From positions 1 to 52,129 of the forward strand of contig CAMBPQ010000018.1 in NCBI GenBank assembly GCA_945869735.1: a stretch of 52,129 bases of DNA, given 5' to 3'. The position numbers and the translations under genes are program-made. The notes under the pieces are model-generated. The model had not been told where the DNA came from, did not search any database, and saw nothing but the letters and a program-made list of their open reading frames with translations. Every line of letters begins with the position of its first letter. Position 1 is the first letter of the stretch. This DNA is from Planctomicrobium piriforme. GTDB taxonomy: Bacteria > Planctomycetota > Planctomycetia > Pirellulales > UBA1268. Positions 9,393-12,748 of this stretch are shown here, in pieces.

Positions 9393-10775
9393 CTAGCGAC
9401 CGCCGCGGGAGAGCCGCTCCAGCCGCCGTTCGAGCACGTCGAGCCAGGCCCTGACGAGGCCGACCTCGCGCCGCAGTTCGCCGGCTTCCGCCTCGGCCGG
9501 TGTCTCGGGGCGACGGCTCGTGCGCGGGGCCGGTCCGGGCTCGAGTGCAGGGGCCACCGTCGGCTGCATCGAGGCATCGCCGACGAGCGCTTGCTCAAGC
9601 GGCTGCTCCAGCGACTGCAGCATTACATCGGCACGTTTTTCTGTGCCCCCGGGCAGCACGTACTCGAGCGCCATGGGGCGGTCGGTCGGTCCGGAGGCAA
9701 CGAGTTGCGTGAGCTCTTGGGGCGATCGAACGGGGCGGTCCCCCAGTTTCACGATCACGCTGCCGGGCGGAACGCCGGCCTTCGAGGCCGGCAGATCGCC
9801 CACCACGCCGACGACGTAGGCGCCCGCGGCCTCTGACAGGCGAAACCGTGCCTGAATGTCGGAATCGATGGGCACGGTGCGCACGCCGAGAGCGGTGCGG
9901 CCTCGTGACGTGGGTACTGCAGTCGTGATTGGCGTGTGAGTGTTCATGTTCGGCGCGACCATGACCGCCGCTGGTTGGGGAGTCACAAACGCAGGCGGCG
10001 TCATCGCTGCGGGCCCCGCCGGCAGGACCATCGCGGCGGGAGTGGACGTGGCAACGACCGCTCGAGGCTCCACGAGCACCGATGCCGTGGGCGAGGCGAT
10101 GGCCGTCGGCAGGACCGAGACCACGGGCTGACGCATTTCGACTGGTGACAGTTGCTGCTGCGGCGTGGCCTGCCATTCACGGGCTGCCGCTACGGTCGGG
10201 CGGGGCACGGCCACGAGAGCCATGTCACCGACCTGATCAGCCCGCGCGACGGAGAGCCGGACATTCTGGCCAGCCGCGATCGCCGTCATCGCCTGGGCGA
10301 CTTCGTCGGCGTTTGTCGGCGCGACGCCGTCGATGGCGCGGAGTTCGTCCCCCGTGCGGACCCCTGCGGCTGCGGCGGGTCCGTTCGGGACCACTTCCAC
10401 GATGGACCAGCGGCCCGCAACGGTCGACTCGGCGACCGACATTCCCAGCCATCCGTTCGGGGCGGCGGTGGCATTCGCTGCGAGCGGTGTGACGGGAACG
10501 GAAGCCGGGGCCTGCGTCGCCGCAGGGCCTTTGAGCGTGGGTGCGGGCTTTGCAAAGGGCAGGGCGATCGGCTCGCCGATCAAGATGTCGTTGGGTTGGA
10601 AGCTCGCCGGCGGCCGCGATGGCTCTTCCGCCGAGCGTGCCGACGATGGTCGAAGACACGCCGCAGCCAACGCACAGCCCACGCACACAAGGAAGCTGCG
10701 TACGAGTCGCCCGGCAGCCCCAACATCACCGCGATTCAGCGCAACGCTGCTCGAGGGTTCGCACGCGTCGAGCAT
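9393..10775 (-). CDS. Secreted protein with two PDZ domains, no protease domain
   Basis: About 460 aa. The N-terminal hydrophobic stretch (RLVRSFLVCVGCALAAACL) followed by RSAEE suggests export. PDZ domain 1 is the WLGMSVAES...VVPNGPAAAAGVRTGDELRAIDG region. PDZ domain 2 is LGVRTVPIDSDIQARFRL...SKAGVPPGSVIVKLGDRPV. They are joined by a long Ala/Pro/Thr-rich linker. The last 35 residues (EAGELRREVGLVRAWLDVLERRLERL) look like a short coiled coil. No His-Asp-Ser protease triad is visible, so this is probably an adaptor or scaffold rather than an HtrA enzyme. The start is uncertain: ATG 10775 is used because it places the signal segment near the N-terminus; ATGs at 10811 and 10847 also exist. It is divergent from dnaA. 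Confidence 0.8.
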   Translation of the reverse strand: MLDACEPSSSVALNRGDVGAAGRLVRSFLVCVGCALAAACLRPSSARSAEEPSRPPASFQPNDILIGEPIALPFAKPAPTLKGPAATQAPASVPVTPLAANATAAPNGWLGMSVAESTVAGRWSIVEVVPNGPAAAAGVRTGDELRAIDGVAPTNADEVAQAMTAIAAGQNVRLSVARADQVGDMALVAVPRPTVAAAREWQATPQQQLSPVEMRQPVVSVLPTAIASPTASVLVEPRAVVATSTPAAMVLPAGPAAMTPPAFVTPQPAAVMVAPNMNTHTPITTAVPTSRGRTALGVRTVPIDSDIQARFRLSEAAGAYVVGVVGDLPASKAGVPPGSVIVKLGDRPVRSPQELTQLVASGPTDRPMALEYVLPGGTEKRADVMLQSLEQPLEQALVGDASMQPTVAPALEPGPAPRTSRRPETPAEAEAGELRREVGLVRAWLDVLERRLERLSRGGR

Positions 10776-10958
10776 GGTTCGTGAATCCGTCCGTGGAACG
10801 TCAGGCGTCATTAATGAAAGACGCAGTATAAGCGATGCAGGTCGCATCGCGGGCCATGCCCGGCATTCGCGTCTGGACGGGGAAAATCGGCCCGTTTCGG
10901 CGGTAAGGCGGGTGTTTGGGCGGCCTCTGGCACGTCGTCGCCGACTTCACCGCGGCCA

Positions 10959-11075: not shown

Positions 11076-11119
11076 GCAGTGCTGTCATGGTTTGACAGCA
11101 CTGCAGGCACTCCTATACT
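11076..11119 (+). promoter_or_regulatory. dnaA promoter with overlapping 29-bp operator-like palindrome
   Basis: There is a perfect -35 TTGACA at 11092-11097 and a TATACT -10 at 11114-11119, with a 16-bp spacer. This predicts a start near 11126 and an 87-base leader to the dnaA ATG. Overlapping the -35 is a perfect dyad: GCAGTGCTGTCA (11076-11087), spacer TGGTT, TGACAGCACTGC (11093-11104). Twelve-base arms with a five-base spacer are the geometry of a dimeric repressor operator, and occupancy would block RNA polymerase. The dyad is not followed by a T-tract, so it is not a terminator. Confidence 0.75.
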
Positions 11120-11212
11120 CGCGCCGCCTCTTTGGTTCAGTGCGAATCGGAGATGTGAAACCACGGATGGAATAGTCCAGGAACCGCGAGGTTTTTGGAA
11201 CGGGAAGGACCC

Positions 11213-12748
11213 ATGGGGAACGCACGCGACGTGGTCGAAGCCGCCGAATCGTCCGACGGCGAGAGGATCGCAGAACGTGTCCTGAAGGCCTTTCGTTCAC
11301 GTATCGGAGACGACAGGTTCGCAGTCTGGTTCGGAAACGCGGTCCGTCTCTCGGTCGAGGCAGACAGCGGCAGCGGTCGCGGCCAGCGGGTGATTGTCAC
11401 CGTGGGCAGTGGCTTCACGTACGACTGGCTATGCCGCACGTTTCGCGCGGAAATGGCCGCGGCAGCCTGCGATGCCTGCGGACCATCCGCGGAGGTGGCC
11501 TGGGAGCCAGCCGCGGCAGATGCCGTGGCGTTGCCGCCAAGCCCGCCCGCCGAGGCCGCGACTCAAGCGCGACGCCGGCCTGGCGGCAGGCGGCAGGCGG
11601 ATCGTCCCACGGCCGCGACCACGTCGGGGGCTGCACGATCTCCGCAATCATCAGTTCGTGAGCTCAGTGTCGTCGCCCAGCAGCCGAAGGGCGTGGTGTC
11701 GCCGAGCCGTCGGCCCGGTCTCCGGCTGGCGGACTTCGTCGTCGGTCCGAGCAACCGTATGGCCTACGGTGGCGTTGAAATGGCAGTCGCACGGCCCGGC
11801 GAAATCTCGCCGCTCGTGATCCACGGTCCAAGCGGCGTGGGCAAAACGCACCTCCTCGAAGGGGCGTGCGAACGGGCCCGTGAAATCCATCCTGGCGTCA
11901 ATGCGGTGTGTCTCTCGGCCGAACAGTTCACCACCGCCTTCCTGCATGCTCTCCACGGTGGCGGTGGCCTCCCTGGCTTCCGCCGCACGTGCCGCAGCGC
12001 CGACCTTCTCGTCATCGACGACCTGCACTTCTTCGTGGGTAAGAAGGCCACGATCCTCGAGTTGCAGCACACGCTCGACTTCTTGCAGCGGCAGGGGCGA
12101 CAGGTCATCCTCGGTTGCGACCGCGAACTCGATGCGTTGCCCGATCTCGGTCCCGATCTGCTGACGCGGCTCCGCGGCGGAATGACCGCACGGATTCTCC
12201 CTCCCGACTACGACGTGCGTCGGGGCATCGTGGCTGCGATTTGTGCGAAGCGCGGCCTGACGGCGCCCGACGATGTCGTCCAGTATGTCGCCACCAACAT
12301 GACGCGGCATGCCCGTGAACTCTTCGGGGCGGTCAACCGTCTGGAGGCGACGAGCCAGATGCTCGGCCTCCCGATCGCGCTGGACATGGCGGCTGAAGCA
12401 CTCGCCGACCTCGTGCGATCGAGTGCCCGAAGCGTCCGGCTGGCTGACATCGAGCGGGCTGTCTGCAAGGCTTTTGGGATCGACAGCGGCAGTTTGCAGT
12501 CGGCGCGGCGGGCTCGGACGACGAGCCATCCGCGGATGCTTGCGATGTTTCTTGCCCGGAAGCACACCCATGCCGCGCTCGTCGAGATCGGCAGCTTCTT
12601 TGGCCGTCGCAGCCACTCGACGGTGATCGCCGCGCAGAAGGCGGTGGGGGAATGGGTGGCGAAGCGATCGCAGATCGTCCTGGCCGACGCCGCCTGGGAT
12701 GTCGAAGAGGCTATTCGCCGCGTCGAGGACGTGCTGCGGGCTGGGTGA
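11213..12748 (+). CDS. dnaA: Chromosomal replication initiator DnaA
   Basis: 511 aa. It is the AAA+ ATPase that binds DnaA boxes and opens the origin. Domain I is residues 18-85 (RVLKAFRSRIGDDRFAVWFGN...). Domain II is a low-complexity linker (about 95-165). Domain III carries Walker A GPSGVGKT (205-212), Walker B LLVIDD (265-270) and LLTRLRGG (317-323) with the arginine finger. Domain IV has the DNA-binding signature HPRMLAMFLARKHTHAALVEIGSFFGRRSHSTV (439-471). Its core HSTV is intact, but the flanking residues (GRRS instead of the usual GGRD) are divergent. ATG 11213 has GGGAAGGA just upstream; a TTG at 11195 is less likely. No dnaN, recF or gyrB lies nearby, so this is not the classical dnaA-dnaN origin cluster. 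Confidence 0.92.
   Translation: MGNARDVVEAAESSDGERIAERVLKAFRSRIGDDRFAVWFGNAVRLSVEADSGSGRGQRVIVTVGSGFTYDWLCRTFRAEMAAAACDACGPSAEVAWEPAAADAVALPPSPPAEAATQARRRPGGRRQADRPTAATTSGAARSPQSSVRELSVVAQQPKGVVSPSRRPGLRLADFVVGPSNRMAYGGVEMAVARPGEISPLVIHGPSGVGKTHLLEGACERAREIHPGVNAVCLSAEQFTTAFLHALHGGGGLPGFRRTCRSADLLVIDDLHFFVGKKATILELQHTLDFLQRQGRQVILGCDRELDALPDLGPDLLTRLRGGMTARILPPDYDVRRGIVAAICAKRGLTAPDDVVQYVATNMTRHARELFGAVNRLEATSQMLGLPIALDMAAEALADLVRSSARSVRLADIERAVCKAFGIDSGSLQSARRARTTSHPRMLAMFLARKHTHAALVEIGSFFGRRSHSTVIAAQKAVGEWVAKRSQIVLADAAWDVEEAIRRVEDVLRAG

Follow-up and report, generated by a model that had tools for sequence, protein, structure and literature searches.

The promoter of dnaA in this planctomycete genome is overlapped by a perfect palindrome, and the question that the locus raises is whether this symmetry marks a site at which a regulator controls initiation of replication and, if so, which part of it the regulator would read. 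The window, the whole stretch of 52,129 nucleotides that was analyzed, is derived from a genus of uncultured Planctomycetota whose nearest relatives are metagenome assemblies, mostly from lakes. The genome itself is a draft assembly of 128 contigs with 95% completeness. A sequence-only reading of the window had proposed that a dimeric regulator acts at dnaA through the palindrome, that DNA repair genes might be co-regulated, and that autoregulation by DnaA would not explain the arrangement.

The dnaA promoter and its dyad

The dnaA gene is preceded by the hexamers TTGACA and TATACT which are separated by a 16-bp spacer, and the ATG is located 93 bp from the -10 hexamer (Table 1). Hexamers that resemble TTGACA and TATAAT and that lie 15-18 bp apart upstream of a gene characterize sigma-70-type promoters; the dnaA promoter possesses each of these properties and is conserved in relatives. 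The dyad GCAGTGCTGTCA-TGGTT-TGACAGCACTGC was read directly from the sequence, with arms at 11076-11087 and 11093-11104 and TGGTT as the loop. The right arm spans the whole of the -35 hexamer apart from its first T. The sequence, coordinates and geometry of the near-consensus promoter given in the sequence-only reading were exact, and the perfect 12-base arms with a five-base gap over the -35 hexamer were confirmed. The promoter also had been described as unusually strong for the genome, which agrees with the finding that TTGACA-N15-18-TANACT occurs just three times in the 3.17-Mb assembly, so that strong promoters are rare here. A cobalamin riboswitch (Rfam RF00174, 84 bits; L261:1533-1758) is positioned directly downstream of one of the other two occurrences (98847-98874, contig C1). 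The divergent neighbor of dnaA, at 9393-10847 in the window, specifies a 484-amino acid protein with two PDZ domains.

Considered solely by its length, the dyad is no more than moderately unusual and constitutes weak evidence: one perfect 12-bp dyad with a loop of 0-20 was observed in the window compared to 0.23 expected from first-order Markov sequences. Its significance stems instead from its position in the promoter and from its conservation.

Table 1. Coordinates of dnaA and of the promoter features within the window.
Feature	Position	Strand	Remarks
Dyad, 12-bp arms (O1 and O2 plus matching flanks)	11076..11104	.	Unique in genome; arms common to sister
O1, accessory site TGCTGTCA, 8 bp	11080..11087	.	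TGMYRKCA match at fixed offset, 25/51 related promoters
-35 hexamer TTGACA	11092..11097	+	Read in window; conserved in relatives
O2, TGACAGCA, overlaps -35 hexamer	11093..11100	+	Conserved in distinct related promoters
O3, TGCAGGCA, core site inside promoter spacer	11102..11109	.	Order-wide consensus TGCTAGCA
-10 hexamer TATACT	11114..11119	+	TANAAT in most of order
dnaA coding sequence, 511 aa, ATG start after GGAAGGA	11213..12748	+	Pfam domains

Conservation of short palindromic sites upstream of dnaA

This dnaA gene is present, partly in fragmented form, in 20 of 22 genomes of the genus. The sequences TTTGACAGCA and CTATACT were constant in all 18 genus dnaA promoters that were recovered, whereas the flanking DNA had diverged. 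Retention of the sites while the flanks diverged supports a sequence-specific, probably dimeric regulator. The left arm TGCTGTCA was retained in just a subset of these 18 promoters. Full 12-bp arms are common to a 90%-identical sister (L003/L072) and 8-bp arms are found in the wider clade. Thus, footprinting recovered the dyad in close relatives, absence from all of which had been named beforehand as the outcome that would count against the proposal.

The repeated unit in the relatives is an 8-bp quasi-palindrome, TGMYRKCA, that occupies three positions designated O1, O2 and O3, of which O3 was missed in the sequence-only reading. The sites are spaced by 13 bp (O1-O2) and 9 bp (O2-O3), distances that are not whole helical turns, and O1 to O3 is 22 bp. 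Site O1 begins at a fixed position 13 bp ahead of O2 and is centered at approximately -42, assuming a transcription start near 11126. A wider set of dnaA-anchored loci displayed the arrangement TTGACA-N4-(8-mer)-N4-TATACT, and a spacer of 16 bp was common to the window and nearly all relatives. The spacer 8-mer, which is TGCAGGCA in the window, was TGCTAGCA, TGCAAGCA, TGCATGCA, TGCTTGCA, TGCCAGCA, TGACAGCA or TGCTGTCA in the other loci. Of 114 distinct related promoters, 73 carry TGACAGCA and 14 carry TGACAGCG at the O2 position. Conservation extends past the -35 hexamer to the G and C that follow TTGACA, and a clean distinction between O2 and mere conservation of that hexamer is not possible.

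Site O1 is more variable. A full TGMYRKCA-type site was located at the fixed offset in 25 of 51 distinct TATACT-type promoters compared to 0.3% at other offsets. Approximately half of the nearer relatives possess the site, which is often lost and is displaced by one base in a few promoters. It takes the form of TGCTGTCA, which is inverted relative to O2, of TGACAGCA, which is direct and in the same orientation as O2, or of TGCTGGCA or TGCCAGCA. A DnaA tree of 48 rows indicates that these forms interchange and have been lost repeatedly, with at least 13 changes. All of the O1 forms would be explained by a degenerate palindromic protein site, TGMYRKCA. The alternatives at O3 (TGCTAGCA, TGACAGCA, TGCTGTCA and TGCCAGCA) mirror those at O1, as is expected if a single protein reads all of the sites. 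No significant tendency of O1 to offset a weak O3 was detected (Fisher p = 0.35), and palindromic or direct-repeat covariation around GCTAGC was modest at most in counts that include related genomes. The original proposal that the 12-bp dyad is itself the element is not supported: O1 has frequently been lost or exchanged for a direct or symmetric site, and O3 is more constant. The comparison indicates that the dyad is probably not the functional unit, but instead comprises two sites, O1 and O2, of a three-site array in which O3 appears to be the older, more constant member and the ancestral main site in Pirellulales.

Of the 246 genomes that represent the order, 118 possess the pattern TTGAC-N6-GCTAGC-N5-TANNNT and none has more than one copy; like the other conservation counts, this number includes related genomes. 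When 30 pattern matches were inspected, 28 were found to precede dnaA in the same orientation at a distance of ~190-430 bp, and the remaining two were at contig ends, at which dnaA would fall outside the assembled sequence. Outside the order, the pattern was found in a single genome of 289 in a phylum-wide draw, with a poor -10 hexamer; three further matches in the draw were inside the same order. As the 118 genomes were chosen by the pattern, independent evidence comes from the dnaA-anchored sets and not from base frequencies at the positions that the pattern fixes. The free positions that flank GCTAGC were T in 83 and A in 81 of 104 cases, which extends the palindrome to TGCTAGCA, and the -10 hexamer was TANAAT. 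The dnaA gene was found in 28 of 30 pattern-negative genomes of the order, with 27 usable upstream regions. By manual count, TTGACA-N16-TANNNT is kept in 13 of the 27, in which the site differs by one step, and TGCTAGCA is retained in six more despite changes in the hexamers or spacing; a clear site is absent from about eight. From the six promoters, the palindrome in the spacer can persist where the -35 hexamer does not. Overall, the comparison points to a single strong dnaA promoter with built-in, conserved small palindromes in most of Pirellulales.

The arrangement was confined to dnaA. The dyad is single-copy in the 3.17-Mb assembly at up to three mismatches, and no second full dyad was detected in the genome when sharing with repair genes of the LexA type was considered at this threshold. 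A regulon search with the dyad in the same genome returned eight other places at three mismatches compared to five with a reversed control, which corresponds to chance. The dnaA promoter was the sole match in the genome for the spacer geometry at zero mismatches. In 50 genomes, TGCTAGCA-N4-TANAAT produced four matches away from dnaA which were beside unrelated or unclear sequence and shared no common gene. Thus, co-regulation of DNA repair genes was not borne out, as neither the dyad nor the arrangement of O3 within the promoter recurs above chance at other loci. The pattern appears to mark dnaA alone, with no sign of a repair regulon.

A candidate dimeric repressor and competing explanations

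The sequences, positions and conservation of the sites and their restriction to dnaA are most readily accommodated by a putative dimeric DNA-binding protein that binds the TGMYRKCA array and represses dnaA, a reading to which we assign a probability of approximately 0.55. In the sigma-70-type promoter, O3 is placed within the spacer, O2 overlaps the -35 hexamer and O1 is just upstream, and occupation of these sites by the candidate protein would block RNA polymerase sterically, thereby repressing dnaA. Site O1, the left arm that generates the visible dyad, would be an accessory site by which binding is strengthened in certain lineages. Sites over the -35 hexamer and in the spacer are classic repressor positions, and steric block therefore is the simplest reading of operators that are so placed. 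Protein binding, its dimeric nature, repression and recognition of all three sites by the same protein are each inferred from these observations. The kind of regulator envisaged in the sequence-only reading is supported by conservation of the sites amid diverged flanks, whereas the 12-bp dyad as its unit of recognition is not. A regulator with one conserved target other than its own gene is unusual, which counts against this interpretation. The spacings of 13 and 9 bp, which depart from whole helical turns, and the lack of a clear site at about eight of the 27 pattern-negative dnaA loci likewise weigh against it. More tentatively, a dedicated dnaA regulator may operate order-wide through TGCTAGCA-type sites and without another conserved target, in an order that possesses a full-length DnaA with a changed helix and a short DnaA-like gene beside dnaN.

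The properties of DnaA bear directly on whether the protein could itself be the repressor. The window DnaA scored above the curated cut-offs for Pfam Bac_DnaA (108.2 bits) and Bac_DnaA_C (71.8 bits), but below that of the NCBIfam TIGR00362 equivalog (291.1 versus 343.9 bits); a distant Pirellulales DnaA scored 321.6 bits. The recognition helix of E. coli DnaA is GGRDHTTV. The corresponding helix in the window protein (residues 464-471) is GRRSHSTV, which differs from GGRNHSTV in other planctomycete orders. In the genome of the window, dnaN (C5:63408) follows a short DnaA-like gene (L031:871-1893, contig C5) with the helix GGRQHTTV, in which Pfam recognizes the C-terminal DNA-binding domain only. 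The dnaN-linked copy in a closed relative (G027; L217:1-1098) has the canonical helix GGRDHTTIMH and an ATPase domain, and is without the N-terminal domain. From the dnaN-linked short copies in these two genomes, the order carries at least two DnaA-like genes, of which that in the window is the stand-alone, full-length copy. Several genomes of the order contain yet another DnaA-like open frame, ~370-480 amino acids long (L212, L213 and others).

Autoregulation, in which a Pirellulales DnaA with an altered helix binds TGMYRKCA or TTGACAGCA sites and represses its own promoter, predicts an arrangement confined to dnaA, as was observed, and is common in bacteria (PMC8203912, PMC5835720). No exact TTATNCACA DnaA box was present in the 52-kb window and canonical TTATNCACA boxes around dnaA in 80 loci were restricted to isolated single matches. 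Near dnaN, canonical boxes similarly were single mismatched or isolated matches. The absence of TTWTNCACA 9-mers near the promoter sets it apart from promoters that are controlled through canonical DnaA boxes. The observation in the sequence-only reading that the sites do not resemble DnaA boxes holds, as they are unlike canonical boxes and none are nearby, but the argument built on it against autoregulation is weakened: a DnaA with a changed recognition helix may act through sites other than canonical boxes. Evidence against autoregulation is provided by the form of the site, a symmetric 8-mer compared to the asymmetric 9-mer that DnaA binds as a monomer, and the variation of the recognition helix within the order (RRS, NRQ, NRT, KRR) while TGCTAGCA is constant. 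Moreover, no origin-like cluster of sites was found: the sole TTGACAGCA-like local cluster (C1:98210 in the genome of the window) was rejected as an origin because it is repetitive coding sequence. In a closed genome (G233), GC skew was too noisy to position the origin and dnaN was not beside this dnaA. Autoregulation by DnaA is the main competing explanation, but is less likely than a separate dimeric repressor.

Somewhat less probable still is an activator that binds O3 in the spacer and aids RNA polymerase at dnaA. Activation through O3 is conceivable since some relatives (G088, G125 and G109) keep TGCTAGCA despite a poor -35 hexamer. However, an activator seems unnecessary at the 16-bp spacer and near-consensus hexamers of most genomes. 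MerR-type activators act on spacers of 19-20 bp with a dyad centered within them, whereas the spacer here is 16 bp. It is improbable that the preferences of the primary sigma factor explain the conservation without a dedicated regulator: the -35 and -10 hexamers do belong to the conserved block, but the spacer palindrome was not encountered again at other promoters, whether in the genome or in the order, and the position of O1 is upstream of the -35 hexamer. A hairpin or cruciform formed by the 12-bp dyad, whether as a terminator, an RNA element or extruded DNA, is very improbable despite the perfect arms and five-base loop. The dyad is upstream of the -10 hexamer and so is absent from the dnaA transcript, no T-run follows it, and no Rfam match was obtained in the dnaA promoter locus. 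Furthermore, several relatives possess a direct copy, TGACAGCA, as the left arm which is unable to pair with the right arm. As the left arm is direct or lost in relatives, a hairpin is effectively eliminated for the family as a whole and a DNA-binding protein fits.

The putative dimeric repressor is of interest as the conserved palindromes suggest a protein that controls the timing of chromosome copying. Many Planctomycetota bud and lack FtsZ and, to our knowledge, control of replication initiation in the phylum is essentially unexplored. A promoter element that is conserved in the order and confined to dnaA provides a direct handle for finding the regulator, and highlights a full-length DnaA that may have acquired altered DNA recognition.

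Relation to known systems

Searches of the literature, in which most subscription journals were outside the scope, retrieved no work on the dnaA promoter in planctomycetes, none in which TGCTAGCA occurs together with a promoter, and nothing on this element in studies of planctomycete origins, LexA or transcription starts. The parts consulted of an article that treats chlamydial regulators (PMC4989314) contain no such motif. No earlier description of the element was found in the literature searched, which is weak evidence of novelty.

Certain established elements were compared with the array. The CIRCE operator of HrcA (TTAGCACTC-N9-GAGTGCTAA) does not correspond to the dyad, in which the arms AGTGCT and AGCACT are in the opposite orientation. 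A methylation site at O3 is unlikely as, in the genus of the window, TGCAAGCA, TGCAGGCA and others occur in place of GCTAGC. Operators of MetJ-type ribbon-helix-helix proteins consist of tandem 8-bp palindromes that are bound cooperatively by dimers. The array upstream of dnaA resembles these operators in that 8-bp palindromes are arranged over a promoter, but differs in sequence, in the spacings of 13 and 9 bp, and in that no ribbon-helix-helix protein is linked to it.

The E. coli dnaA promoter is autoregulated through DnaA boxes and additionally is subject to methylation, SeqA and Fis. The likeness to the present locus is that protein-binding sites in and around the promoter control dnaA transcription. 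In E. coli, TTATCCACA and AGATCT boxes are distributed between and around two promoters (PMC8203912, PMC5835720), whereas here a symmetric 8-mer is placed inside a single promoter with no canonical DnaA boxes nearby. Expression of dnaA in Caulobacter crescentus involves methylation together with a cis element that is located upstream of the -35 hexamer (PMC8203912). Although the arrangement differs, the Pirellulales promoter resembles that of C. crescentus in possessing a cis element near the -35 hexamer and in pointing to control of dnaA beyond plain autoregulation by DnaA.
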